The notes below the pieces were generated by a model. That model saw only the letters and a program-made list of their open reading frames with translations. It made no database searches and was not told the origin of the DNA. Source: Bacteroidota bacterium (GTDB lineage: Bacteria > Bacteroidota > Bacteroidia > Bacteroidales > VadinHA17). From it: 44,549 nt of DNA. Within the stretch, counting starts at the first letter, position 1, and every line of letters starts with the position of its first letter. The position numbers and the translations under genes are program-made. Where the stretch lies: contig DQWH01000186.1 in NCBI GenBank assembly GCA_011042635.1, positions 1 through 44,549 on the forward strand, given 5' to 3'. Positions 10,940 through 26,924 of this stretch are shown in pieces.

Positions 10940-11710
10940 TCAGAATCTGAGGTGTTTTACCGACATGCCTTCGTTTTTTATTTCCATCAGGGCATCAATG
11001 CCGATTTTCAGATGAATTTCGGTGAATTTTCCGGTCACCAGTTTGTCGCTTTGCTGTGTTTTTATGCCGGCACTGATCATGGGTTGATCTGAAACGAGCA
11101 ACAATGCGCCTGAAGGAATTTCATTGGCAAACCCCACGGTAAAAATAGTGGCGGTTTCCATATCAATGGCCATGCACCGGGTTTTTCTGAGGTATTTTTT
11201 AAATTTCTGGTCATATTCCCATACCCGGCGGTTTGTGGTGTACACAGTGCCTGTCCAGTAATCGTGCTGGTGGTTCCGTATGCTGGTTGAAACGGCTCGC
11301 TGCAGGCTGAAAGCAGGAAGAGCCGGAATTTCAGGAGGCAGATAATCGGCCGAGGTTCCTTCTCCACGGATGGCGGCAATGGGCAGAATAAAATCACCCA
11401 GCTGGTTTTTCTTCTTTAGGCCACCGCATTTTCCAAGAAACAGAACCGCCTGTGGCTGAACCGCTCCCAGCAGATCCATAATGGTTGCCGCGTTGGCACT
11501 TCCCATTCCGAAATGGATCATGGTAATTCCTTTTCCTGTTAGAGCAGGCATGTTCACCGTTTTGTCGGGCAAGGGCAAATGGTGCATGTCTGCAAACATT
11601 TCCATATAATTCATGAAATTGGTCAGCAGAATATATTTCCCGAAATTTTCAATGGGAATACCTGTATATCGCGGGAGCCAGTCCTTTACTATTTCGGCTT
11701 TTGTTTTCAT
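10940..11710 (-). CDS. amn: AMP nucleosidase (short Bacteroidota-type)
   Basis: TKAEIVKDWLPRYTGIPIENFGKYILLTNF, MIHFGMGSANAATIMDLLGAVQPQAVLFLGKCGGL, AIDMETATIFTVGFANEIPSGALLLVSDQP. Confidence 0.92.
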   Translation of the reverse strand: MKTKAEIVKDWLPRYTGIPIENFGKYILLTNFMNYMEMFADMHHLPLPDKTVNMPALTGKGITMIHFGMGSANAATIMDLLGAVQPQAVLFLGKCGGLKKKNQLGDFILPIAAIRGEGTSADYLPPEIPALPAFSLQRAVSTSIRNHQHDYWTGTVYTTNRRVWEYDQKFKKYLRKTRCMAIDMETATIFTVGFANEIPSGALLLVSDQPMISAGIKTQQSDKLVTGKFTEIHLKIGIDALMEIKNEGMSVKHLRF

Positions 11711-11735
11711 AGAGGATATTGTTCGCTGTTCTTGT

Positions 11736-11743
11736 TACCTTTG
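11736..11743 (+). promoter_or_regulatory. Candidate -7 promoter element (TACCTTTG)
   Basis: Exact TAnnTTTG match 22 nt upstream of a GTG start at 11766 of the HsdR-N-like gene. Confidence 0.45.
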
Positions 11744-11765
11744 TCCCTGTGTAAAAATTCACTTT

Positions 11766-12227
11766 GTGGAGCAGCTAAATTTACCAACTTATTCTTTCAA
11801 TATAAAATCAAAAGAAGGGAGGGATTACATCTTCGACCCCGTAAGGAAGAAGTATGTGGTGCTGACCCCCGAGGAATGGGTGCGGCAGCATTTTGTCAGT
11901 TACATGATCCGGGAGAAAAATTATCCGGCCTCGCTTACCCGGGTAGAGATGTATCTGGAAGTGAACCGGATGGGTAAACGGTGTGATGTCGTTTTTTTCG
12001 ACAGAAACGGTATTCCCCGAATGATTGTGGAATGCAAGGCCCCGGAGGTCAGGATCAGCCAGAAAACCTTTGACCAGGTGGCTGCCTATAACCTGAAGTT
12101 AAAGGTAGATTACCTGGTTGTCACCAACGGATTGAAACATTATGCCTGTGCCATGGATTACCGGACGAACAGCTATATTTTTCTGAAAGAAATACCCGAT
12201 TATCATTCTCTTAAGTTGACAGATTGA
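11766..12227 (+). CDS. Type I restriction enzyme HsdR N-terminal domain-like protein (stand-alone nuclease-like domain)
   Basis: VEQLNLPTYSFNIKSKEGRDYIFDPVRKKYVVLTPEEWVRQHFVSYM...RCDVVFFDRNGIPRMIVECKAPEV (PD-(D/E)xK-like D...ExK); GTG start at 11766 is in frame with ORF 11613..12227. Confidence 0.82.
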   Translation: MEQLNLPTYSFNIKSKEGRDYIFDPVRKKYVVLTPEEWVRQHFVSYMIREKNYPASLTRVEMYLEVNRMGKRCDVVFFDRNGIPRMIVECKAPEVRISQKTFDQVAAYNLKLKVDYLVVTNGLKHYACAMDYRTNSYIFLKEIPDYHSLKLTD

Positions 12228-12747
12228 TGCATTGCAGCATCCATTCGCCGGAAAACCCTTTCCCGTTGAATAACCAGTCTTTTTTTTCGCCGATAACGGT
12301 GAATCCGTTCCTGGTGAACAAACGCAGGCTGGCCTGGTTGTCAGTAGCGATATGGCAGTAAAGTTGATGGAGTTTCAGGTGCTCGAAACAGTATTCCTTG
12401 AACAGTTGGAGGGCTTCGGAAGCATATCCCTTGTTCCGGTCGTTTTCGTTATGTATCAGAATGCCTACCCCGCCCCGCTTGTGGTAGGGATCAAAATCGA
12501 ACAGATCGATTGCTCCAAGCGGATGGCCGTCGTTCCTGCGAATGATCATCAGTCTGAATTGCCGGGTGGCATACAGATCGCTGGTGGATTGTTTGATGAA
12601 CTGTTTCAGGGTAAATTTTGAAAAGGGGATGAGGGTCTGGCTTACTGTCCAGTGACGGGGATCATTTTCCCACAGGTACAGTACTTCCAGGTCTTCGGGC
12701 TCCATGGCCCTGAGCCTGATTCGTTTATTTTCCAGCAGAGTATTCAT
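12211..12747 (-). CDS. GNAT family N-acetyltransferase
   Basis: RIRLRAMEPEDLEVLYLWENDP...GGVGILIHNENDRNKGYASEALQLFKEYCFEHLKLHQLYCHIATDNQASLRLFTRNGFTVIGE; ATG at 12747 (MNTLLENKRIRL) preferred. Confidence 0.92.
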   Translation of the reverse strand: MNTLLENKRIRLRAMEPEDLEVLYLWENDPRHWTVSQTLIPFSKFTLKQFIKQSTSDLYATRQFRLMIIRRNDGHPLGAIDLFDFDPYHKRGGVGILIHNENDRNKGYASEALQLFKEYCFEHLKLHQLYCHIATDNQASLRLFTRNGFTVIGEKKDWLFNGKGFSGEWMLQCINLST

Positions 12748-12788: not shown

Positions 12789-14711
12789 TCAATCGGATTC
12801 CTGATAAACTTTCTTAACCCACAGATCTTCATGATAGCCTTTATCAACCAGTTGCTGCCTTACTTTTTCTGCTTCTTCCTGGGTGTCAAATTCGCCGTAG
12901 GTATACCGGTAAAAGCCGTCTTTTCCCAGGATGACCCTTACATTTTCGAGGGGGGCGAAATAGGAAACATCCACCGGCCGGACTTTCAAAGCCATTAATT
13001 GAACGGTATAATACAGCACTTCCCTTTCATGATCAATGATTTCAAGGTCCTGGATGTCAAGGCCTGTAATAACCATTGCCGAATCGAGCGGCCTGGCCTG
13101 GCTGATATCGATGCTGTCTTTCAGCCATTTTTCCCGGACGGGTTTTTTGGAAGGTTCTGCAGGGGTCAGTTCCACATCAATAATAAACTCCGATTTTCTG
13201 GCATATTCATCGATCCGTATTTCTTCCCGGTGGGGAAGGTATCCGTTTCCGGTATAAATCATATCATAATTGCCTGATTTGGTGATGAAAGAGTATTGTC
13301 CCGATTGCCGGTTCGGGAATCCCACGTCTACCGTATCCATCGATTCCCTGTCGATCATGAAGATCTGAAAATCCCAACCGAACTCCCGGGTGGTGTCTGC
13401 CAGTGACAATTGTCCCCTGATGGTGAAGTCACGGGTTATTCCTTCAGGAAGTATTTCAATGCGGTACAGGTTCATTTCCTTGTATCCGTCAAGCATGGAT
13501 ATATATGCGGCCTTGCCGTTCTGCACCGGATTGAAAAACAGGTCATCGTCGGTGGTATTCAGGGGATATCCGATATTCACGGGTTTGCTCCAGGATCCAT
13601 CAGGCATTCGCTGTGAGTAGAATATGTCGTATCCCCCCATGTTGTAATGGCCTTCCGAAGAAAAATATAACAGGGAATCATTTTCCGTAATAAAGGGATA
13701 ATTCTCATTGAACGGGGTATTGATATTATTTCCTATGTTTTCCGCAGGTCCCCAGTTACCGCGTTTGTCCTTTTTTGAAACGTATATGTCCAGTTCTCCC
13801 AGTCCCCCTGTCCGGTTGCTTGTAAAATACAGAGTATTTCCGTCGCTTGAGACACAGGCATGCGATTCGTAATAACGGGTGTTAATGTTCCGGTTCAGCT
13901 TCCGGGCTCTGGTCCATTCTCCATTTTTTCTTGAACTGACATAAATATTTCCGTCTTCCATATCGGATTTATACAGATACAGTTCCGTTCCGTCAAATGA
14001 GAGGGAAGAGGACATCCCGTCCCGGTCAGAATGGACCAGCCGGGTGATGTCTTCGGCCGGACTCCATACCCCGCCGGTGGTACGGGAAGTTTGATAAAGG
14101 ACATCCTCATCCCCGTATTTGGCGGTAAATACCAGGGTATTTTCATCTCCCGATACGGCCGGGTGAATATTCATGGATACCACATTGACCTGATTGCCCA
14201 GATTTTGCGGGATATAGCTCACAGGATTCTTTTTCAATTCTTTTGCGATTTCACATGCCCTGATTTGCTGGTTAATGAATTCATCATTCTCCATGGGATT
14301 ATTTTGCCTGATCAGTTCCCTGAAGTGCTGGTAGGTGGCGATGGCTTTGTCGAGCTGATTGGTGATCCTGTAAGCATTGCCCAGATAAAAGTATGCATCG
14401 AGGGGGGCACGGGTTTCGGTAGGAAGATGATCCCGGGCATCGTAAGCGGCATTTTTTACTGCTTTTTCGAGGTATGGAATGGCCTTTTCCTTTTCGTTGG
14501 GAATATGCAGATAACATACCCCGATCTTGTACAGGATATTGGCGTTATCATCATCTTCCAGCAGAAGGTAAAGCAATATAGCATCTTCATATTCCCGGTA
14601 AAGGTAATGTGATTCGGCCTCGACGAAAATCTCCCGCATTTCAGACCTTGTCTGGCCCATGATCCTCCCCGACAGAAATAAGCAGCACAGAATTATCAGG
14701 CATTTGTGCAT
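12789..14711 (-). CDS. PorE-like TPR/PD40 protein with CRD-like and C-terminal SPOR domain (paralogue E)
   Basis: Signal peptide; YEDAILLYLLLEDDDNANILYKIGVCYLHIPNEKEKAIPYLEKAV; PD40 blades (NTLYFTSNRTGGLGELDIYVSKKD); C-term YTVQLMALKVRPVDVSYFAPLENVRVILGKDGFYRYTYGEFDTQEEAEKVRQQL is SPOR-like. Confidence 0.85.
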   Translation of the reverse strand: MHKCLIILCCLFLSGRIMGQTRSEMREIFVEAESHYLYREYEDAILLYLLLEDDDNANILYKIGVCYLHIPNEKEKAIPYLEKAVKNAAYDARDHLPTETRAPLDAYFYLGNAYRITNQLDKAIATYQHFRELIRQNNPMENDEFINQQIRACEIAKELKKNPVSYIPQNLGNQVNVVSMNIHPAVSGDENTLVFTAKYGDEDVLYQTSRTTGGVWSPAEDITRLVHSDRDGMSSSLSFDGTELYLYKSDMEDGNIYVSSRKNGEWTRARKLNRNINTRYYESHACVSSDGNTLYFTSNRTGGLGELDIYVSKKDKRGNWGPAENIGNNINTPFNENYPFITENDSLLYFSSEGHYNMGGYDIFYSQRMPDGSWSKPVNIGYPLNTTDDDLFFNPVQNGKAAYISMLDGYKEMNLYRIEILPEGITRDFTIRGQLSLADTTREFGWDFQIFMIDRESMDTVDVGFPNRQSGQYSFITKSGNYDMIYTGNGYLPHREEIRIDEYARKSEFIIDVELTPAEPSKKPVREKWLKDSIDISQARPLDSAMVITGLDIQDLEIIDHEREVLYYTVQLMALKVRPVDVSYFAPLENVRVILGKDGFYRYTYGEFDTQEEAEKVRQQLVDKGYHEDLWVKKVYQESD

Positions 14712-14736
14712 GAGGTATGTGCTATTAACATATTGA

Positions 14737-14766
14737 CAAATCTAAAAATTCAATTGTTTTTTTCAA
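14737..14766 (-). promoter_or_regulatory. Candidate Bacteroidota promoter (TTG-N19-TAGATTTG) for paralogue E
   Basis: Minus strand TAGATTTG at 14744-14737 with TTG at 14766-14764, spacing 19 nt; lies over the 3' end of the upstream paralogue. Confidence 0.5.
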
Positions 14767-16219
14767 TGAGTACTTTCAGATTTTTGTTACTTGATTTGCA
14801 GGTAATTTTTTTTGATTCAGGATCAAAAATGAATTCGGTCAGTATTTCTTCCGTATTCCGGTTGATCAGTCTGATGATGAAGGGTGTTTTACAATCCCAC
14901 TCCGTATCCAGCTCTCCTGAGAACGGCATAGTGCCGGCGGTTTCTTCCGGGATAATTTCTATGCTGTAAATATCCTGCTGCCCGAATCCCTCCGGCATAT
15001 TTCTGGAAAGATACATGAACTTACCGTTTCTGACGGGATAGAAAAAGGTTTCATCGGAAGTAGTATTAACGGGGTATCCAATATTTATCGGATCTTCCCA
15101 TTGCCCTGATGGGCCCCTAGTGGAATAAAAGATGTCGTATCCCCCCATGTTGTAATGTCCCTCCGATGCAAAATACAGTGTGTTCCCGTCTTCTGACAGA
15201 TGTGGACTGGCCTCGTTGAAGGGGGTGTTGATCACATCTCCCAGATTTTCCGGCTCTGACCACTGTCCGGATTGGTCAAGTACTGAACGGTAAATATCGA
15301 ATTCGCCTATCCCTCCCCTCCGGTTACTTGAAAAATAAAGGGTTTTTTCATCGGCTGACAGGGAAGCAAAGGATTCGGCCCGGTTCGAATTAACCGGACC
15401 CGGAAAAGGCTCCATTCTGGACCAGGATCCGTTGCTGTAGGTGCTGATGTAGATATCACGGTTATTCCCTGTGCCTTTTATGAGCAGCAATTTTTCCCCT
15501 TCCGGTGAAACCCATACCGGGATAGCATCTCCGTCCGATTCCACCTGGGGGGTAATATTTACGGGTTCAGTCCATATGCCGGCCAGTTTGTTACTCATGA
15601 AGAGGGCATTATAAAACTTTAAATCAGTCATATATACCAGTGTCTGTTCATCGGCAGATATGACAGGTTGGTAATTGTCTGAGGCATCATTGACAGGCGA
15701 CCCCAGGTTTACGATATTCACATTCAGGGGAATATCCTTTATGATTTTTGCGATTTCACAGGTACGGATTTCGTTCTCCACGATCCTGATATTGTAATTC
15801 CTGTCAAAGCCCGGAACTTCCCTGAAAGCATAAAAGGCATCCAGGGCTTTTTCCAGTTCGTTGTTGATCCGGTATGCCCTGCCCAGGTAAAACCAGGTAT
15901 GGTAGGGAGCTTTTGTTTCTTTTGTAGACCTTGCCGAGTATTTTCCGGTTATATCCCCGAGTGCTTTCTCAAAGTAGGGGATGGCTTTGTATTCTTCTCC
16001 AGGAATGTGTAAATAACACATCCCGATCCTGAATTGTACATTGGCATTGAAATAGGGTGTATCTTCGAGTCGTAGCAGATAATATATAGCTTCTTCATAA
16101 TCTTCTTCCTGGAAAAAGAAGAACCCGTTATCAAGCAATTCTTCGGGGCTCTGATCTTCCTGTGCCACGGCAGGAGTGCAAATGAACAATAAACTAAAAA
16201 GAAAAAGGACGTTTCTCAT
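14750..16219 (-). CDS. PorE-like TPR/PD40 protein, short C-terminus (paralogue D)
   Basis: MRNVLFLFSLLFICTPAVAQ signal peptide from ATG at 16219; same TPR core (FNANVQFRIGMCYLHIPGEEYKAIPYFEKAL) and PD40 blades; no OmpA/SPOR domain. Confidence 0.83.
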   Translation of the reverse strand: MRNVLFLFSLLFICTPAVAQEDQSPEELLDNGFFFFQEEDYEEAIYYLLRLEDTPYFNANVQFRIGMCYLHIPGEEYKAIPYFEKALGDITGKYSARSTKETKAPYHTWFYLGRAYRINNELEKALDAFYAFREVPGFDRNYNIRIVENEIRTCEIAKIIKDIPLNVNIVNLGSPVNDASDNYQPVISADEQTLVYMTDLKFYNALFMSNKLAGIWTEPVNITPQVESDGDAIPVWVSPEGEKLLLIKGTGNNRDIYISTYSNGSWSRMEPFPGPVNSNRAESFASLSADEKTLYFSSNRRGGIGEFDIYRSVLDQSGQWSEPENLGDVINTPFNEASPHLSEDGNTLYFASEGHYNMGGYDIFYSTRGPSGQWEDPINIGYPVNTTSDETFFYPVRNGKFMYLSRNMPEGFGQQDIYSIEIIPEETAGTMPFSGELDTEWDCKTPFIIRLINRNTEEILTEFIFDPESKKITCKSSNKNLKVLIEKNN

Positions 16220-16334
16220 TTGGAGTAATTTTTGCCAGCCACTAGAAAAGAAAGATAATAAAAAATTTTGTATTACGAACCCCGACTTCACACAGTATGG
16301 TGTGTACTGATTAACCCGGCGGGAATATTGTTGC

Positions 16335-18299
16335 CTAAAAGACAGGTTTTTCCGGTTGAATAAAGGAGTACGTGTTTTCTGGAACGGCAAAATCCACTCT
16401 GCGGTTGAATTTCCTTCCTTCCGGGTTGTCCGATCCGTCAGGCCGGTGGTTAGGAGCAATGGGACAGCTTTCTCCCAGTGCCTTAATTTCCAGCCTGTTT
16501 TGCGGAATGCCCTGCTTTACCAGGTAGTTTTTAACAGTCTGTGCCCGGCGTTCCGACAAGCGTAAATTGTAATCTTCCGCTCCAATGGCATCGGTATGGC
16601 CCCGGATCTCAATTTTTAAATCGGGAAATCGTTCCAGAATCGCGACCAGCCCTCCGAGTGCGCTTTCCGATGAAGGAAGCGGGTCAGATCTGTCGAAACC
16701 GAAATAAATATTCCTGAGTGTGATGGTTCCCCTGATTTTTCCCCTGGCGGAAATGTCGAGGGAGTGGCTGTCTTCCCTGTCGGTGATATGAATACGTTGA
16801 GTAAATGTTTCTAAACTACTGTCTTGCAGGGTTACTTCATATATGGCCGGGGGGAGGTGGAACATAAAATGGCCTGTACTATCCGTTGTTACAAGAAGGG
16901 TGTCACCGTTTTCCATGCTGGTCACCGTCAGCGTGGTTTCAACGGGATAAACCCTGCCGGTTGGGCTGGAAACATTTACATTCCCTGAAACCATAACCTG
17001 AGCAGGTTGAACTGCCTGGGGCGGCATGAACCAGGCTAACTGGCTCGTTCCGGGTTCTTTGTGTCTTGTCAGAATAAAATCAGCATTACCCGGGGCAGGA
17101 GAGAAGGCCTGGTCGTTCAGGGTTGAATTGACAGGATATCCAGGGTTTTGTGGTACTGTCCATGTATCTCCGGACCTGACGGAACGAACAATATCAAGCC
17201 CGCCCATGGTTACGTGACCGTCGGAGGCAAAAAACAGGGTGTCGGGATGCTTCAGGTAAGGCGAGGTTTCTTCGTAGGGTGTGTTGATGCGACTGTCCAG
17301 TAATTGCAGTCCGGTAGCCACAAACTCTTCATCCAGCTTCGCTGTGTACAGATCCAGTCCTCCGTATCCCCCTGGCCTGTCGCTGGAAAAATATAGGGTA
17401 TTTCCGTCATCTGTCAGAAATGCGGTAGTTTCATTCCATCGTGTATTCACACTTTCAAGAGGTTTTGCGGAACTCCAGCGCCCATCTTTAATTCTGGAAT
17501 AATACAGATCGTACTGCTCATCCTGTTTTCTGGTCAGGAAAAGCACCTTTCCGTTTCCTGAAAGGGATACACATTCAAAATAACCGTCAGATTCAATGGA
17601 AGCGGTGATGTTCCGGGGTTCCTGCCAGGTGTTGCCGTATTTTTCCGAAAGCATCACTGCCCGGTAATAATCTTTCCGGTGCATAAATGCCAGCGCCGAA
17701 CCATCGGGGGCCAGACAGGGATTATAAACATAGGTGGCGGTATTGATCGCGGGGACTTCAACAGGAGGTGCAGAAACTGGAGCAGAAAAAAATCTTTTTG
17801 CGGTTTCACACATTTTTATCTGCCGTTCGGCTTCCATTGTTTCTGGATCATTCTGCCCGAACCATCTACGGTATCTGGCAAAATGTTCCAGGGCGGCATC
17901 GAGATCTCCGTTCATCCGGCAGGCTATACCCAGGTACAGAAATGCCTCGCGCGGTGCTGACATTTCTCTGTGGAAGTCATCCCTGTAACGTTTTTTCACA
18001 TGGTTTGTAGCCTTTTCAAGGTAAGGAACGGCCAGGGATTCGTAACCCGGAATGTGCAGCAGGCACATCCCGGTTTTATAATTCAGGTTAGCATTGTCAG
18101 GATATTTTTTAACCAAACCGGTAAAATAGGGTAAGGCTTTTTCATATTCTTCATAGAGGTAATGAAAATTCCCCTCATAGAATGTTTTCTGGTAATCCCT
18201 ACCCGACTGGGCTGTTGCGAATGACCAGGCAAGGAGGAGGATGGCTCCGGTCATTTTCAAGCCGGGTGCTTTCTTATACATTTCGTTGTAACAGCTCAT
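16335..18299 (-). CDS. PorE-like TPR/PD40/CRD/OmpA protein (paralogue C)
   Basis: TPR core, PD40 blades, carboxypeptidase-regulatory-like segment, C-term LKIEIRGHTDAIGAEDYNLRLSERRAQTVKNYLVKQGIPQNRLEIKALGE...NRRVDF (OmpA-like). Confidence 0.9.
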   Translation of the reverse strand: MSCYNEMYKKAPGLKMTGAILLLAWSFATAQSGRDYQKTFYEGNFHYLYEEYEKALPYFTGLVKKYPDNANLNYKTGMCLLHIPGYESLAVPYLEKATNHVKKRYRDDFHREMSAPREAFLYLGIACRMNGDLDAALEHFARYRRWFGQNDPETMEAERQIKMCETAKRFFSAPVSAPPVEVPAINTATYVYNPCLAPDGSALAFMHRKDYYRAVMLSEKYGNTWQEPRNITASIESDGYFECVSLSGNGKVLFLTRKQDEQYDLYYSRIKDGRWSSAKPLESVNTRWNETTAFLTDDGNTLYFSSDRPGGYGGLDLYTAKLDEEFVATGLQLLDSRINTPYEETSPYLKHPDTLFFASDGHVTMGGLDIVRSVRSGDTWTVPQNPGYPVNSTLNDQAFSPAPGNADFILTRHKEPGTSQLAWFMPPQAVQPAQVMVSGNVNVSSPTGRVYPVETTLTVTSMENGDTLLVTTDSTGHFMFHLPPAIYEVTLQDSSLETFTQRIHITDREDSHSLDISARGKIRGTITLRNIYFGFDRSDPLPSSESALGGLVAILERFPDLKIEIRGHTDAIGAEDYNLRLSERRAQTVKNYLVKQGIPQNRLEIKALGESCPIAPNHRPDGSDNPEGRKFNRRVDFAVPENTYSFIQPEKPVF

Positions 18300-18306
18300 G
18301 GATACG

Positions 18307-20289
18307 TTACCGGATTTTGATCGCGGCCGGCATATCGATCGGTTCGTATTCCACGACCAGATCACCTGATTCAGGAATACGAATTTCTGCCCTTCTGTTC
18401 AGCGCTCGTCCCTCGGGACAATCGGCACCGTTTTCGTAACGGTTTCGGGCTATTGGGTTGTTTTCACCTTCTCCCGATAAACTAATTCTTGCCTTCCCAA
18501 TCCCTTTCGATATGAGGTAATCACGGACGGCACCAGCACGGCGTTCGGAAAGTTTCTGATTGTATGCCGCCGGGCCAATGGCATCGGTATGTCCGATAAT
18601 TTCAATATTCAATCCGGTGTGTTCCTCCAGGATTTTTACCAGTTCGTCAAGTTTAGTCTGTTCTTCTGTGGTGATGGTTGCCTTGTCAAAAGCGAAATAG
18701 ATATGTTTCAGGGTAATGACTTCGGGGGGAACCGCAACCAGTGTGGCATCTACCTTTACTTCCGACAGCGAATAATCGGATGGAAGATGAGCTTCCCTGA
18801 CTAGGGGTTCGAAGCCTTCACACTCGAATGTGAGTGTATAGGTGCCGGGCACCTTGCTGGTGTACTGAAACTCTCCGGTTGAAGGATGGACCGGCAGTAT
18901 CGAGGGCTGAGTGCCTGAGGGGCCGGATATATTTACCTTTATATCGGCTTCTTCCGGTACAGTTACATCCTCAAGGGTTACTTTTCCGGTAATCAGTACG
19001 GGTCTTGGGTTTTTATCAGAATAAATCTCATACCGGTAAATGTCTTCTTGCCCGTAACCATCTTCGGTATATCTGGCAAAGTAGGCGTTTATGCCGTCAT
19101 TCACAGGCATGAAGAAAATATCCTCGTCGGCGGTGTTAATGGGATAACCCAGGTTGACCGGTGTGCTCCAGTTCCCTTCTTCGTCAAGGGAGGAAGTAAA
19201 AACATCGTAGCCTCCCATGGTTTCGTGCCCCTGAGAACTGAAATAAATGGTTTTTCCGTTATTCACCAGGAAAGGGGTTTCTTCATTGAAAGGGGTATTG
19301 ATTACCGGACCCATATTTTCAGCGGGACCCCAGTCGCCGGTGGTTTCATCCCAGCGGGAAAGGTACAGGTCAAAACCGCCGTATCCGCCGGGTTTGTTGC
19401 TGGTAAAAATCAGGACGGACCCGTCCTCTGAGACGCAGGCATGGTTTTCCCAGTATTTGGTATTGATATTTTTTCCGAGTTTCTCTGCCGGTTGCCATTC
19501 TCCGTCTATTTTCCGGCTGAGGTAGATTTCGCTGTTGAAATCATCGTCTTTTGACAGAAGCAAACAGTTGCCGTCTGAGGAAAGGCATGTGGGATACATG
19601 TCACCGTCGGACAGGATTTCCGGGCTCAGATTGACCGGATCGCTCCACTGGTCGCCTGATTTTTCTGTATAAAAAATCGCATCATAAAATTTCAGGCCGG
19701 TAACGTAAACCAGGGTTTTTTCATCGGGTGTGGTAACCGGTTTGAAATTGGGAAAATGATCATTGATGGGCGGCCCCAGATTGACTGCATCGAACGGGAC
19801 GGGGTTTTTTATATATTTCCTGGCATTCTCACAAGCATCAATCTGTTGGAGGATAAAATTGCGATTAATGGTATCAGCGTTTTCTATCAGAGACAGATAA
19901 TGGTCAAAAATCTGAGCGGCTTCATCAAATCGTTTCTGTATCCGGTAGGCGGCTCCCAGATAATAATAGGCTTCCAGAGGTGCTCTGTTTTCCCTGTGAT
20001 TCGCTTCCCTGTAACTGGTGGTGGTATTTTTAACGGCTTTTTCAAGATAGGGAATGGCTTCCTCTTTTTGTCCCGGCAGATTGATATAACACATGCCGAT
20101 GCGGTAACAGATGTTGGCATTATTGGGGTCCATTTCATATAGTTCGAGAAAGAAGGGCAGGGCATCGGCATATTCTTCGTATAGTAAGAAATAATCTCCG
20201 TCAAGAAAGGTTTCCTTGAAATTGGTTTCCTGTGCGAATGTGGAGGAAAATAATAGACAGGAAAACAGAAATACCAGAGCTTTTTTCAT
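18307..20289 (-). CDS. PorE-like TPR/PD40/CRD/OmpA protein (paralogue B)
   Basis: Same architecture; C-term LNIEIIGHTDAIGPAAYNQKLSERRAGAVRDYLISKGIGKARISLSGEGENNPIARNR...NRRAEI. Confidence 0.92.
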   Translation of the reverse strand: MKKALVFLFSCLLFSSTFAQETNFKETFLDGDYFLLYEEYADALPFFLELYEMDPNNANICYRIGMCYINLPGQKEEAIPYLEKAVKNTTTSYREANHRENRAPLEAYYYLGAAYRIQKRFDEAAQIFDHYLSLIENADTINRNFILQQIDACENARKYIKNPVPFDAVNLGPPINDHFPNFKPVTTPDEKTLVYVTGLKFYDAIFYTEKSGDQWSDPVNLSPEILSDGDMYPTCLSSDGNCLLLSKDDDFNSEIYLSRKIDGEWQPAEKLGKNINTKYWENHACVSEDGSVLIFTSNKPGGYGGFDLYLSRWDETTGDWGPAENMGPVINTPFNEETPFLVNNGKTIYFSSQGHETMGGYDVFTSSLDEEGNWSTPVNLGYPINTADEDIFFMPVNDGINAYFARYTEDGYGQEDIYRYEIYSDKNPRPVLITGKVTLEDVTVPEEADIKVNISGPSGTQPSILPVHPSTGEFQYTSKVPGTYTLTFECEGFEPLVREAHLPSDYSLSEVKVDATLVAVPPEVITLKHIYFAFDKATITTEEQTKLDELVKILEEHTGLNIEIIGHTDAIGPAAYNQKLSERRAGAVRDYLISKGIGKARISLSGEGENNPIARNRYENGADCPEGRALNRRAEIRIPESGDLVVEYEPIDMPAAIKIR

Positions 20290-20346
20290 TGGCCTTGGGA
20301 TTTGAAACTTAACAAATTTAATAATTTAATTCACATGAGGAAAGAA

Positions 20347-20380
20347 ATGAAGGGATTGTTCATTTGATCAATCCCTTCAT
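20347..20380 (-). terminator. Perfect 12-bp inverted repeat, probable terminator hairpin after paralogue A
   Basis: ATGAAGGGATTG-ttcatttgat-CAATCCCTTCAT, 26 nt past the stop of 20407..23235(-); followed on the minus strand by a moderately T-rich stretch (TTCTTTCC). Confidence 0.6.
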
Positions 20381-20406
20381 GAAGCCATTCGGTCCGTTAG
20401 ACCTTT

Positions 20407-23235
20407 TTATTCTCTGATGTCACGGTTTTCTCTGTTCTCTTTCTTTTTTCTGGTCAGAATAAAAAGCAGAATAAGCAGGAACAATATAGCGCCGCTGATC
20501 AACCATGCCATCCATATTCTGCCCGGAGCCTTTTCTTCCGACAATTTTTCAATTACCTCGTCGGCCAGCTCGCTGTGTTTATCCATCAGTCGGAAGAGGA
20601 GGTCCCAAACCTGGTCGGCAGTATATGGATAATTAACCGATTGTTGCAATATATATTCCAGCAATTGTTCCGGTGTCATTTCCCGGACCATTTCATGGTC
20701 AAGGCCTGTGAGGAAATCTTTCAAAGCTCCATCTGATGAATTTGTCAGGTTTTCAAGGAATACCAGCACATCTATCTTTCCCCCTGAAGCCAGGGCGGAC
20801 ACGAGTCTGAAGACTTCTTCTTTCTCGTATCCGAAGAATTCGGCTTTTCCAATGAGGTATTCTACGAGTTCCTGGTTGTTTGTAATCCCTTCGCGGTCAG
20901 GTTCAAGATGTTCAATGGATGATTTCAGTGTGCCTTCGGCCATTTCTTCCATTTTCCCCATCAGTTCCCTGACTTTTTGTTCCTCAGCGGCCGGTGAGAT
21001 CATCATGATCCTGCGGATATCTTTTTCACTGAAGGCATAGTTTTCCGAAAGGGTGTTCAGGTGTTCGATAAGTCGGAAGGAGGTGCTGTCAGTCCATATC
21101 TCACTGTCGATACGGCTGATGGCTATCTTCATTTCACCGCGGGCATATCTCTTCAGTTTTTCCAGTATGCCGGTGGTATTCATGGAAGCCACCTGGTCGC
21201 GGTACATGAAAAGGGTATCGACCTCAGCCGGCTGATTGCTCTCATCTACCAGGTACTTCCGCAGATCACGGATAGAATACAATTTCGACTGCTGAGGATC
21301 AGTATTTTCAATGATCCTTCTCCATTCCTTCCCGGAAATGGCTTTCAGTTCTTCCATGGCGCTCAACACTTCCCCGGGAATCGGTTTGACTTTCGTACGC
21401 GGAGGTTCGTAAGTAACCACCGTTTCTTTTACGGTACGGTTGCCTGCCTGATCTGTCAGTGTAAAACGCAGGATGGTTTCACCGGGCAGGGGATCGAAGG
21501 TATACCGGGTTTCCGTTTTTCTGATATCGAACTCTTCGCGGTTCACTACCACACTATCCCTGATGGTTTCTACTACCAGTGTGGCATTCTTTTCAGTGTC
21601 CAGATCAATCCTGACTTTCCCTTTTGTAATGTAAACGGTCGTATCAGAAACTTCAAGTTCGGCAATCAGATCGGCTTCTTCAAGGGTTTTGTTCAGGATA
21701 AAAGTATCTTTTCGTTCGTAAGGTTCAATCACCAGTCGGCCTGTGGCAGGAATGAAACTGTCTGCCTCAAAAACTACATGATAAATGCCCTGAACCAGGT
21801 CGGTCTGATAACTCCCCGATGCATCGGCTGTAACCACGGAAGCCGTATCGCCGGTTTCCGTGTTGATGAAACGAACCGTAATGTCCTCTGGCGAATAGCC
21901 CTGGGTGGTTCTCAGTTCAACCATTCCGGTGATAAGGTATTTCTTCGGATGTTCTTCGGAATATATTTCGAGTTCAAAAATATCCTGTTCCCCGAAACCC
22001 TCTTCACTGTATACAGCATAATAGGCAAGGTGCCCCTCACCGATGGGACAGTAGAAAAGATTGTCGTCAGGGGTGTTTACCGGGTACCCCATGTTCACCG
22101 GAGCCGACCAGGTGCTGTCGCTCAGCAGGTTGGAATAAAAAATATCGTACCCGCCGATGTTGAAATGGCCGTAGGAACTGAAATAGAGTGTTTTTCCGTC
22201 ATGTGATATGAACGGGGCATCTTCATTATAAGGAGTATTGATTTTATCTCCCAGGTTTACGGGAGGACCCCATTCACCACCCACGCTGTCGCGTGTGGAA
22301 ACATAGATATCCAGGTCTCCGTAACCCCCTTTCCGGTTGCTGGTAAAATACAGGGATTTTCCGTCGGCCGAAATGGAGGCATGTGATTCCCAGTATTTTG
22401 TGTTGATATGATCGTTCAGCCTTTTTACGCGGGACCATACCTGACCGTCATAATAACTTACGTATATATTCCCGTCGTAACCATCAACTTTGTATAGGTA
22501 TAGTTCTTTTCCGTCGGCAGAAAGTGAACTGGTATAGAGGTCTTCGTCTTCTCCCAGCTGAAATGTGAGGTTTTCAGGCTCGGTCCATTTCCCGTCTATT
22601 TTTTTGGAGAAGAAAACGGCATCATAGAACTGAAGCTTCCGCATGAAAAGCATTATGGTCCTGTCGGCCGAAACAACCGGATTATAGTCGGAAAACCTGG
22701 AATTGACCACTTCGCCCATATTTCTTATATTCAGGAACATAGGGTTTTGCATGATCTTTTTGGCATTTTCACAGGCACGGATCTGTTCATCTACCAGATC
22801 CAGGTCATACTTCTTTTCGTCGACAGAATTTTTAAATCGCCGGTAAGCTTCCAGCGCCTCGTCAAGGCGGTTATTTACACGGTAGGCGTCGCCCAGGCGG
22901 AACAGGGCTTCGGGCGGGGCGTGGGTTTTCCTGATATTTTCACCTTTGTATTTATCCGAAGTATGCCGGGAAGCTCTTTCCAGGTAATCAATGGCTTTGT
23001 CTTTCTGTCCGGGCATATTCAGATAACATACTCCGATACGGTACCTGATATTGTGGTTGTTGGGGAACTCCCGCAACATCTGAAGGTAAATGGGGAGTGC
23101 CTCGTTGTATTCTTCGTACAGAAAATAGGCATTGGCTTCTTTAAACCGTTCTCGCCAGTCAATTTCTTCCTGAGAAGAACCATTATACGTGAAAAGCAGT
23201 GATACAAGAAGGATCAGGAGTGTATACCGCTTCAT
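20407..23235 (-). CDS. PorE-like TPR/PD40/CRD protein with Ig-like domain, four-repeat helical domain and C-terminal TM anchor (paralogue A)
   Basis: Signal peptide; TPR core PNNHNIRYRIGVCYLNMPGQKDKAIDYLERA; PD40 blades; C-term WMAWLISGAILFLLILLFILTRKKKENRENRDIRE; ATG at 23235 (ORF-track start 23241 is TTG). Confidence 0.85.
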   Translation of the reverse strand: MKRYTLLILLVSLLFTYNGSSQEEIDWRERFKEANAYFLYEEYNEALPIYLQMLREFPNNHNIRYRIGVCYLNMPGQKDKAIDYLERASRHTSDKYKGENIRKTHAPPEALFRLGDAYRVNNRLDEALEAYRRFKNSVDEKKYDLDLVDEQIRACENAKKIMQNPMFLNIRNMGEVVNSRFSDYNPVVSADRTIMLFMRKLQFYDAVFFSKKIDGKWTEPENLTFQLGEDEDLYTSSLSADGKELYLYKVDGYDGNIYVSYYDGQVWSRVKRLNDHINTKYWESHASISADGKSLYFTSNRKGGYGDLDIYVSTRDSVGGEWGPPVNLGDKINTPYNEDAPFISHDGKTLYFSSYGHFNIGGYDIFYSNLLSDSTWSAPVNMGYPVNTPDDNLFYCPIGEGHLAYYAVYSEEGFGEQDIFELEIYSEEHPKKYLITGMVELRTTQGYSPEDITVRFINTETGDTASVVTADASGSYQTDLVQGIYHVVFEADSFIPATGRLVIEPYERKDTFILNKTLEEADLIAELEVSDTTVYITKGKVRIDLDTEKNATLVVETIRDSVVVNREEFDIRKTETRYTFDPLPGETILRFTLTDQAGNRTVKETVVTYEPPRTKVKPIPGEVLSAMEELKAISGKEWRRIIENTDPQQSKLYSIRDLRKYLVDESNQPAEVDTLFMYRDQVASMNTTGILEKLKRYARGEMKIAISRIDSEIWTDSTSFRLIEHLNTLSENYAFSEKDIRRIMMISPAAEEQKVRELMGKMEEMAEGTLKSSIEHLEPDREGITNNQELVEYLIGKAEFFGYEKEEVFRLVSALASGGKIDVLVFLENLTNSSDGALKDFLTGLDHEMVREMTPEQLLEYILQQSVNYPYTADQVWDLLFRLMDKHSELADEVIEKLSEEKAPGRIWMAWLISGAILFLLILLFILTRKKKENRENRDIRE
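20578..21375 (-). repeat. Four degenerate ~66-aa protein repeats in paralogue A
   Basis: Units begin GEVLSAMEEL, TTGILEKLKR, QKVRELMGKM, KIDVLVFLEN; shared G-x-[LMW]-[KR]..[IL]..[LI][DE]...L.[EK][YH]L pattern. Confidence 0.65.
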
Positions 23236-23438: not shown

Positions 23439-24818
23439 TCAGATCACCCTGGTGGTATCGAAGTTTTTAAGGTATTCCGCCACCTTTTTCAGGTACATGC
23501 CAGCCAGTGCTCCGTCAACTACCCGGTGATCGTAGGAAAGTGAAAGGATCATGATGTGCCTGATCCCGAGGGCATCGCCTGCGGGGGTTTCAATAACGGC
23601 GGGTTTCTTCCTTATGGCTCCGATTCCCAGAATGGCCACCTCCGGCTGATTAATGATGGGAGTTCCTGTCAGGCTGTCAAAAGTACCGAAATTGGTGATG
23701 GTAAAAGTGCCTCCGGTGATCTCATCAGGTTTCAGCTGGTTACTGCGGGCCCTTCTGGCCAGATCATTTACCGTTTTTGCCAGTCCGATGAGATTCTTTT
23801 CATCCGCATTTTTAATCACCGGCACAATCAGGTTCCCGTTGGGCAGGGCCGTGGCTATTCCGATATGGATGTTTTTCTTTTTAATGATACGGTCGCCGTC
23901 CACCGAAACGTTAACCATGGGAAAATCACGCAGGGCATGGGCTACTGCCTCAATGAATACGGGCATGAATGTGAATTTTTGGCCTTCGCGCTGCAGGAAA
24001 GTATCCTTGACCCGGTTCCTCCATTCAACTACTGCTGTCATGTCCACTTCTATAAAGGACGTAACATGAGGAGAAGTCTGCTTGGAACGAACCATATGTT
24101 CAGCAATAAGCTTTCTCATACGGTCCATTTGAATGATCTCATCCTCGCCTGACGATGCTTTTACGGCGCCGGCTGCGGCCTGCTTCTTCAGGTCCGGTTT
24201 TCGGGCAGTAGTTTCAGTTGCAGCCTGTTCGGGCTGTTTCACCTTTCCGGTTTTTTTCTGTTCCAGATACTGCAATACGTCGTTTTTGGTAAGCCGGTTA
24301 TTTAATCCTGTGCCCTGAATGCTGTCCAGTTCTTCGGCGTTGAGGTTTTCTTTTTCCGCAATACGACGGATAAGAGGTGAAAGAAATCTTCCCGAAGGGG
24401 TATGACTTGTTTGTTCAGGGGGAAAAGGGACCTCTTCAGCTTCAGCCTTCTTTTCCGACGGCTTTCCCGGTACCGGAGATTCTTTTTTCTCTGCTTCTGT
24501 TTTCTCTCCGGAAGGAGTGCTTCTGATCCTTTCCACCTCTTTCATGACTTCTTCCGTATCGGAACTTTCCATTTCCTTTTCGGTTTCCAGTCGGGCAATG
24601 GCCTGCCCTACCTGAGGGGTCTCACCTTCCCGGAAAAGAATCTCCTTGACCACGCCGGAGTGTGGGGATGGGACCTCCGAGTCAACTTTGTCTGTGGCAA
24701 TTTCTACCAGCGAATCGTCTTCGTTTACATGGTCGCCTTCCTTAACCAGCCATTTGGTAATGGTTGCTTCAATTACTCCTTCTCCCATGGCAGGGAGCAT
24801 TATTTCTACTTGAGCCAT
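23439..24818 (-). CDS. 2-oxoacid dehydrogenase dihydrolipoyl acyltransferase (E2)
   Basis: Lipoyl domain (LVEIATDKVDSEVPSPHSGVV), E3-binding domain (SPLIRRIAEKENLNAEELDSIQGTGLNNRLTKNDV), catalytic SLSYDHRVVDGALAGMYLK. Confidence 0.95.
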   Translation of the reverse strand: MAQVEIMLPAMGEGVIEATITKWLVKEGDHVNEDDSLVEIATDKVDSEVPSPHSGVVKEILFREGETPQVGQAIARLETEKEMESSDTEEVMKEVERIRSTPSGEKTEAEKKESPVPGKPSEKKAEAEEVPFPPEQTSHTPSGRFLSPLIRRIAEKENLNAEELDSIQGTGLNNRLTKNDVLQYLEQKKTGKVKQPEQAATETTARKPDLKKQAAAGAVKASSGEDEIIQMDRMRKLIAEHMVRSKQTSPHVTSFIEVDMTAVVEWRNRVKDTFLQREGQKFTFMPVFIEAVAHALRDFPMVNVSVDGDRIIKKKNIHIGIATALPNGNLIVPVIKNADEKNLIGLAKTVNDLARRARSNQLKPDEITGGTFTITNFGTFDSLTGTPIINQPEVAILGIGAIRKKPAVIETPAGDALGIRHIMILSLSYDHRVVDGALAGMYLKKVAEYLKNFDTTRVI

Positions 24819-24913: not shown

Positions 24914-26857
24914 TTACCTGTCCAAATGTTTACGGGCCTTCCAAATAATTTTTATATCTGTGGCCGGACTGTAATCTCTTGCATAAACAAGATTCCCTTT
25001 ATCGATCACATCTTTTTGTTCCGTATCGGGGGGCAGGGTATACAATATCCCCGGCCGGATATCGGGAAGGGACTGATCCTTTGCGTCGTGAAGAGGATAA
25101 AACCCTACCCAGCTGCATTTTCCTGATAGAACCAGGACAATATTTCTGAGCAGTCGAAGCGGTTTGCGGAAAAGGAAAAAAGTAATCGGGAAACAAACCA
25201 GAAACAGGACGGAAAGGGTCAGATCCAGCAACCGTTTGTTCCTTCTGGAAGAGGGCTGTGTAATGGTATTGAAATGGAGCAGGAAGAGCTCCCCTGGGGT
25301 ATGGATGGAGTGACTGCCTATGACCGACGCACTTTCGGGAGGGGCTATTTTATACTCCACCGGAAACCGGTTCAGCCGGTTCATGCATTGAATGATTAAA
25401 CCGGCAGGGATATCCCGGGCACAGAAAATCACTTCGCCGGCCTGGTGAACCCTGATCATCTCTTCCAGGTCGGCTATCAGGCCAGATGCATCAGAAAAAC
25501 CGCCCGGGGGTGTAGCCACACCGGCCAGTTCACAGGATGTTCCGGAAAGGTTCAACAGTTCGTAAACCCGCCGGGCTTCTTTTTCACTTCCGGCAATGAG
25601 TATTCTTTTCTTTCTGTCACCGGCCAGTCTGAACTGTGTCCAAGGCAGCCAGTGCATTCCCAGCCTGAAAATCAGGAGAGTTCCCAGGGTCCACCCACTT
25701 CCGGCCAGGATCAGCATGCGGGAATACCTGAAATGCTCCGGAAGGAGGGCATAGATTATGAGGATTATAACGGTTCCGGCCAACCAGCCTGATGTTATAC
25801 GCGAAAGGCGTACCGGGGGGTCGTATCCTCCGGCCAGGAGAAGGCTGATCAACCAGATTATGATCATGCCGGGAGCCAGATACAGGTAGAAGCCATCAGG
25901 ATAATTGCCTCCTTCAGGGAACCGGATCTTTTCCCAGAGCGGGGTCAGTATCATGAAACCGGCCAGAATCAGCAAGACATCCACCGCCGGGAACAGAATC
26001 CTCTTAAAAAAACGCCTGAGGATCGATAGCCCTGCACGGCAGTAAATGGCTCCTTTGATCAGAAAGGAAAACAGGCGGGCATGGGTGGACGTCAGGTGCT
26101 TTTCTGCAAAGATCAACATGGCCCGGTAGAACAGGATCACATACTGAATACTCGTCTTTTTTGTGCTTTCTCCCTTGTAATGTATGATAGAGGTCTCGGG
26201 GAAGTAAACCACCCGGTAACCTGCCTGCAGTATCCGATACGAAAGATCAATATCTTCGCCGTACATAAAGTAGTCCTCATCCAGCAATCCCACTTTGTCC
26301 AGCACCGTTTTTCTGATCATCATGAAGGCTCCGGTAAGGACTTCAATATCCGTTGTTTCAAATTCGTTGAGGTGTCCCAGATAATATTTGCCCAGCGTAT
26401 TTGATCTTGGAAACAGCCGGGTAAGTCCCGATAATTTGAAAAATGCCACCGTAGGAGTAGGCAGGGCTCGTTTTGATTCGGGTAAAAATCTTCCTTTTCC
26501 GTCTACCATCCTTACGCCCAGTGCCCCGGCATCAGGATGCTGATCAAGGTATCCTATACATTTTTCCAGCGTATACTCTCCAACCACGGTATCGGGATTC
26601 AGGAGGAGCACATATTCGCCTGACGAATGCCGGATGCCCTGATTGCAGGCATGAGAAAACCCTGTGTTGCTCTTGTTTTCAATGAGGATAACTCCGGGGA
26701 ATTTTTCCCTGACCATTCGGCAGGAGCCGTCCACCGAATGATTGTCAATAACAATGATTTCCGCCTGTATTTTCCCGGCTGCTTTCTGAACAGAATGCAG
26801 ACATTGTTCCAGGAAGAACTTGACGTTGTAATTGACAATGACAACGGATAGCTTCAT
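24914..26857 (-). CDS. GT2 glycosyltransferase fused to TM region and degenerate sugar-transferase-like domain
   Basis: N-term MKLSVVIVNYNVKFFLEQCLHSV...LLNPDTVVG...YFMYGEDIDLSYRILQAGY; central TMs; nucleotide-binding-like KKRILIAGSEKEARRVYELL; C-term RRNKRLLDLTLSVLFLV...GKCSWVGFYP. Confidence 0.85.
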   Translation of the reverse strand: MKLSVVIVNYNVKFFLEQCLHSVQKAAGKIQAEIIVIDNHSVDGSCRMVREKFPGVILIENKSNTGFSHACNQGIRHSSGEYVLLLNPDTVVGEYTLEKCIGYLDQHPDAGALGVRMVDGKGRFLPESKRALPTPTVAFFKLSGLTRLFPRSNTLGKYYLGHLNEFETTDIEVLTGAFMMIRKTVLDKVGLLDEDYFMYGEDIDLSYRILQAGYRVVYFPETSIIHYKGESTKKTSIQYVILFYRAMLIFAEKHLTSTHARLFSFLIKGAIYCRAGLSILRRFFKRILFPAVDVLLILAGFMILTPLWEKIRFPEGGNYPDGFYLYLAPGMIIIWLISLLLAGGYDPPVRLSRITSGWLAGTVIILIIYALLPEHFRYSRMLILAGSGWTLGTLLIFRLGMHWLPWTQFRLAGDRKKRILIAGSEKEARRVYELLNLSGTSCELAGVATPPGGFSDASGLIADLEEMIRVHQAGEVIFCARDIPAGLIIQCMNRLNRFPVEYKIAPPESASVIGSHSIHTPGELFLLHFNTITQPSSRRNKRLLDLTLSVLFLVCFPITFFLFRKPLRLLRNIVLVLSGKCSWVGFYPLHDAKDQSLPDIRPGILYTLPPDTEQKDVIDKGNLVYARDYSPATDIKIIWKARKHLDR

Positions 26858-26924
26858 CGGGATCAAAAATAGGTACTACCCCTGTCATTTCAAACGAAGC
26901 AACCGGATGGACCCCATATTTTAT

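Follow-up and report, generated by a model that had tools for sequence, protein, structure and literature searches.

A conserved array of TPR-propeller genes with differing C-terminal ends in Bacteroidales: a possible multi-anchor tether of the cell envelope

Why should a bacterium of the order Bacteroidales keep, side by side, five genes for proteins with the same head and differing ends, and what could such proteins hold together? This question is raised by positions 12789–23235 of the stretch of DNA analysed here (the window, 44,549 nucleotides), which is contig C7 of a draft genome of 2.64 Mb, 81% complete. The five genes, designated A, B, C, D and E, follow each other in that order, all on the minus strand, and are separated by 117 bp (A–B), 25 bp (B–C), 115 bp (C–D) and 38 bp (D–E). 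A preliminary description of this DNA considered them to be a tandem of paralogues with a common TPR/PD40 head and different C-termini, and both points were confirmed. Pfam found PD40 in all five genes and TPR also in all five, weakly in D, and the heads (TPR plus PD40 propeller) are 34.5–45.3% identical in pairs over about 406–427 residues. The ends, according to Pfam and the analysis of transmembrane (TM) helices, are SPOR in E, OmpA in B and C and a TM helix in A, with none in D. A weak match to CarboxypepD_reg (CRD) was found in A, B and C. Likely starts are the ATG codons at 23235 (A), 18281 (C) and 16219 (D); the longest open reading frames of these three genes extend further upstream.

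The upstream flank consists of genes for the E2 component of a 2-oxoacid dehydrogenase (E2odh, 23439–24818, minus strand) and a family 2 glycosyltransferase (GT2, 24914–26866, minus strand), both of them conserved borders of the locus, and the gene of a GNAT acetyltransferase (12211–12747, minus strand) lies downstream. The array may be co-transcribed. A search for the Bacteroidota-type promoter TAnnTTTG gave one match upstream of B and one upstream of E, and none upstream of A.

The product of gene A (942 aa, 20407–23235, minus strand) starts with a signal peptide, continues through TPR, PD40 propeller, CRD and Ig-like domains and closes with four helical repeats, a TM helix at the C-terminus and a basic tail; the mean pLDDT of its AF2 model is 86.4. 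The helical region (20536–21327, minus strand) was resolved with an iterated HMM into four tandem units of about 67 residues, which begin at residues 637, 701, 769 and 837 and have the consensus LKEILESLDLEKEGIKTPEDLIEYLLENAEKGGYTEEDVDKLLAKI. Among 92 A-like proteins the same procedure found from 0 to 11 copies, mostly spaced by 66–69 residues, and the number of copies tracks the length of the protein (Spearman 0.82), length and count not being independent of each other. Pfam gave no consistent family for these repeats, and Foldseek gave no convincing counterpart among the 50 matches listed. Calmodulin-like similarity was considered and rejected, the PDB matches being weak (E 0.005 or worse) and taken as chance. 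The TM helix, at about residues 909–927, and the K/R-rich tail occupy 20410–20511 (minus strand); the helix is kept in all 67 aligned orthologues of A and a net positive tail in 61 of them. Because a signal peptide is combined with a C-terminal helix and a basic tail, the positive-inside rule suggests that A is anchored in the inner membrane and exposes its head to the periplasm.

Genes B (660 aa, 18307–20289) and C (648 aa, 16335–18281), both on the minus strand, have the same composition in Pfam terms: signal peptide, TPR, PD40, CRD and OmpA domain. The peptidoglycan-binding OmpA domains of B (18430–18699, minus strand, PF00691 E 2.9e-24) and C (16434–16706, minus strand, E 2e-20) pass the PF00691 threshold, and both contain the Asp, Asn and Arg residues of the D-x7-N-x6-R pattern, which hold the stem peptide in the OmpA domain of PorE (PMC7192894). 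These contact residues are kept in 64 of 79 OmpA members. The head of C is fast-evolving and forms a long branch in the head tree. The product of gene D (489 aa, 14750–16219, minus strand) has a signal peptide, TPR, PD40 and a short CRD-like end, without any anchor.

SPOR domains mark the division septum in other bacteria, and one of them terminates the product of gene E (640 aa, 12789–14711, minus strand; AF2 model with a mean pLDDT of 85.8), after a signal peptide, TPR, PD40 and a beta domain. This SPOR domain (12801–13034, minus strand) has beta-alpha-beta-beta-alpha-beta topology in the model. It scores 24.5 bits against PF05036 in the whole protein and 30 bits as the tail alone, with a gathering threshold of 21, and its alignment matches the SPOR structures of CwlC (1x60, E 4e-4) and FtsN (1uta, E 0.012). 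The Pfam SPOR model was matched by 26 of 31 tails at E≤0.01. The glutamine equivalent to RlpA Q270, a residue contacting denuded glycan (PMC6895207), is invariant in 31 sequences. FtsN, DamX and RlpA share with E the SPOR domain and its glycan-contact glutamine, but not the TPR-propeller head. Reading of the N-termini gave no lipobox with a cleavage cysteine in A–E, so none of the five proteins is a predicted lipoprotein, and a link to the outer membrane would need a further partner.

Is this arrangement peculiar to one genome? Conserved clustering, on which the preliminary description made its reading depend, survived a genome survey, in which one site recurred in dozens of Bacteroidales MAGs. 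Within the family to which this genome belongs, 76 of 117 genomes contain the C-terminal region of A, and they cover 14 of 15 genera. Eighty loci were retrieved by similarity to A, and A itself was present in 79; 51 loci had enough room downstream and 69 upstream. At least two head genes on the same strand were found in 50 of the 51, a GNAT gene downstream of the array in 47, and A together with one or more members bearing OmpA or SPOR in 49; a conserved upstream gene was found in 62 of the 69. Gaps between array genes have a median of 50 bp (at most 150 bp in 130 of 145 cases), and the arrays comprise from 1 to 6 members.

At the level of the order, a profile of the C-terminal part of A matched 20 of 198 genomes, belonging to 11 family codes. 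Eighteen regions were retrieved from these matches: GT2, E2odh or recR stand upstream in 17 and GNAT downstream in 14, and two of the four regions without GNAT run off the end of the contig. The array stands at one fixed locus, GT2–E2odh/array/GNAT, in 11 sampled families. The same profile matched none of 392 other genomes of the phylum, with at most four candidates scored per genome, so that this zero is not a proof of absence. Twenty genomes without a match were inspected at the GNAT gene, where six have other head genes, two a lone OmpA-domain gene and 12 no head gene; two of the six have a TM helix without a recognised stalk, which brings the families with TM-bearing heads to 13. Such a patchy spread (20 of 198 genomes) speaks against a general replacement of Tol-Pal by the array. 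No description of the array was found in the open-access literature.

To follow the history of heads and tails, 127 heads were placed in one tree. The TM-bearing heads of A group together in it (32 rows, SH-aLRT 86), and their tail type requires only one change; A constitutes a single, deep lineage of orthologues. Gene D falls in a clade of 20 unanchored rows from many families (SH-aLRT 99) and gene E in a clade of 12 rows (SH-aLRT 100). All tail types together require 14 changes on this tree, the minimum being 4 and the mean for shuffled tails 73.7, which indicates that tails mostly descend with their heads. In this respect the word "interchangeable", applied to the tails earlier, was too strong; one clean replacement of OmpA by SPOR does stand behind it. 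In genome G018 (locus L050, 9128–11017) B has a tandem duplicate next to it, with a head 84% identical over 514 residues, which carries in place of OmpA an E-like SPOR tail resembling that of E from the same array. Moreover, in genus g12 the gene in the place of B has lost OmpA and encodes a head alone, about 424 residues long, and a paralogue with both OmpA and SPOR (830–890 residues) is the last in the array.

A head of this double type, 860 aa with OmpA and SPOR, is also encoded in the genome under study on contig C37 (L067, 15308–17890); in other genera such genes lie within the array and adjoin GNAT. To this C37 gene a 557-aa head gene on contig C95 (L068, 3241–5852) is closest; behind it, OmpA/SPOR-like sequence continues in other reading frames, which may reflect a damaged copy or a fault of the assembly.

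What do these proteins resemble among known systems? The closest well-described architecture is that of PorE. In PG1058 of P. gingivalis, a protein of type IX secretion, TPR, propeller, CRD and OmpA are ordered as in B and C, with conserved peptidoglycan-contact residues, whereas A, D and E have no OmpA; PorE as so far known is a lipoprotein without TM or SPOR variants and stands outside any array. Scores against the NCBIfam PorE model (NF052230) are 252 bits for B, 207 for C, 159 for E, 144 for A and 131 for D, so that none reaches the cut-off of 600. Nothing else in the genome exceeds it either, the best being a gene on contig C58 (L069, 4375–6989; 317 bits). The latter is the likely porE orthologue: it adjoins a queE-like gene, in the same pairing as pg1057–pg1058 of P. 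gingivalis, and likewise has no lipobox. The queE synteny, which is not ubiquitous for PorE (PMC5053529), is absent from the array, the queE-like gene being a neighbour of the C58 gene instead. The identification of the five genes with PorE itself, suggested by their architecture, was rejected on both the cut-off and the synteny. The related statement that PorE is usually single does not always hold either, for F. johnsoniae has several porE-like genes, and six porP-like genes adjoin porE-like genes there (PMC9143113). The array resembles that case in the number of paralogues per genome but differs in having no porP-like genes at its loci. The absence of a porP/sprF-like partner from the window, pointed out earlier, was verified: six PorP-family genes lie on other contigs of the genome, and among the array loci searched none had an open reading frame matching a profile made from the PorP sequences of this genome. 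On contig C20 (L071, 6282–12817) a PorE-like gene, a PorP-family gene and a gene for a 1381-aa secreted-looking protein, which may be type B cargo, stand in series.

A second comparison concerns CHU_0125 of Cytophaga hutchinsonii, which likewise combines TPR, PD40 and OmpA but is a single OmpA-type protein. All five genes match its family (NF053607) with 159–221 bits, below the cut-off of 620. After deletion of CHU_0125 hypervesiculation was seen, and the outer membrane lost its integrity (PMC5891637); mutants of P. gingivalis in PorE, by contrast, retained an intact outer-membrane barrier (PMC5053529). Recognisable tol-pal loci are missing from Bacteroidetes, and a published proposal regards PorE as a fused CpoB-TolB-Pal, which may be septal (PMC12204202). 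The TolB family model found nothing over its cut-off in this 81%-complete genome (best 75.6 of 343 bits). In Foldseek searches the best 18 matches of the E model were all TolB structures, as were 9 of the best 10 matches of the A model, with modest TM-scores of about 0.4 of the target; PD40 propellers in general are prone to match TolB. As compared with Tol-Pal (TolA, TolB, Pal and CpoB), the propeller, TPR, peptidoglycan-binding and inner-membrane parts are all present as folds, but here they are fused and spread over five proteins, and the locus has neither a lipoprotein Pal nor TolQR. The likeness is one at the level of folds.

In our opinion, there is about an even chance that the array is a multi-anchor trans-envelope tether, extending from the inner membrane to peptidoglycan and possibly to the outer membrane, with one septum-biased member. 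The proteins would have a common interaction head (TPR and TolB-like propeller) and different feet. A would be fixed to the inner membrane through the helix near its C-terminus and carry its head on a stalk, the length of which may depend on how many ~67-residue repeats it contains; B and C would bind stem-peptide peptidoglycan through OmpA; E would bind stripped glycan through SPOR and might be recruited to septal glycan, and D would be free. The heads probably bind one another or a common outer-membrane partner. Formation of a complex, contact with the outer membrane, septal placement and a role in envelope integrity are what we infer from this scheme, and the multi-subunit scaffold with different sub-localisations, put forward earlier, would be of the same kind. 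The conserved locus with its short gaps, the TM helix and basic tail of A, the regular company of A and an OmpA- or SPOR-bearing member, the ligand residues, the TolB-like folds, the lack of tol-pal loci and the phenotype of CHU_0125 favour the tether. Counted against it are the narrow spread, the 12 headless loci among 20 A-less genomes, the lack of a lipoprotein, the intact barrier of PorE mutants and the modest TolB TM-scores.

Two other explanations should be weighed against the tether. The array may serve type IX secretion, its heads binding PorP/SprF-like barrels as in PorE–PorP and its tails fastening the barrels, together with their type B cargo, to the wall or to the inner membrane. 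A PorE-PorP-PG1035 complex is known in P. gingivalis (PMC9143113), and SprA occurs in this genome, besides the six PorP-family genes mentioned, and in each of the 20 order-level genomes that carry A. The latter co-occurrence was discarded as uninformative, since SprA is found in 188 of the 198 genomes and the overlap is expected by chance. The array loci, as noted, are devoid of PorP-like genes, whereas on C20 the PorE-like gene directly adjoins one, and we know of no requirement of type IX secretion for an inner-membrane-anchored or SPOR-bearing PorE. This explanation is fairly unlikely.

The five genes may also be duplicated paralogues linked by operon inertia, each working by itself, as ordinary wall-binding or inner-membrane proteins do, with a separate partner. 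The variation from 1 to 6 members, the loci with other head genes or none and the dispersed relatives in the same genome agree with such an origin; preservation of order and lineage identity over deep divergence, the short gaps and the nearly constant company of A and a peptidoglycan-binding member speak against it, and we regard it as quite unlikely.

A bolder form of the tether, that of a previously undescribed trans-envelope machine of Bacteroidales, in which an inner-membrane propeller on a stalk of variable length and propellers with OmpA or SPOR feet join the inner membrane to the wall and the outer membrane at the septum and take over part of the Tol-Pal role, is in our estimate rather improbable. 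The tether as such bears on how Bacteroidota without Tol-Pal join the outer membrane, wall and inner membrane. To the proposal of PorE as CpoB-TolB-Pal the array adds a predicted inner-membrane-anchored member and a SPOR member, both missing there; candidates for the inner-membrane and septal-targeting parts are linked in one conserved locus, which makes the idea directly testable.

One more gene of the window deserves mention. It encodes a single-domain HSDR_N protein (11613–12227) and is oriented opposite to its neighbours; no HsdM or HsdS was found among the window genes scanned. The HSDR_N gene is kept at the same position in many Bacteroidales loci.
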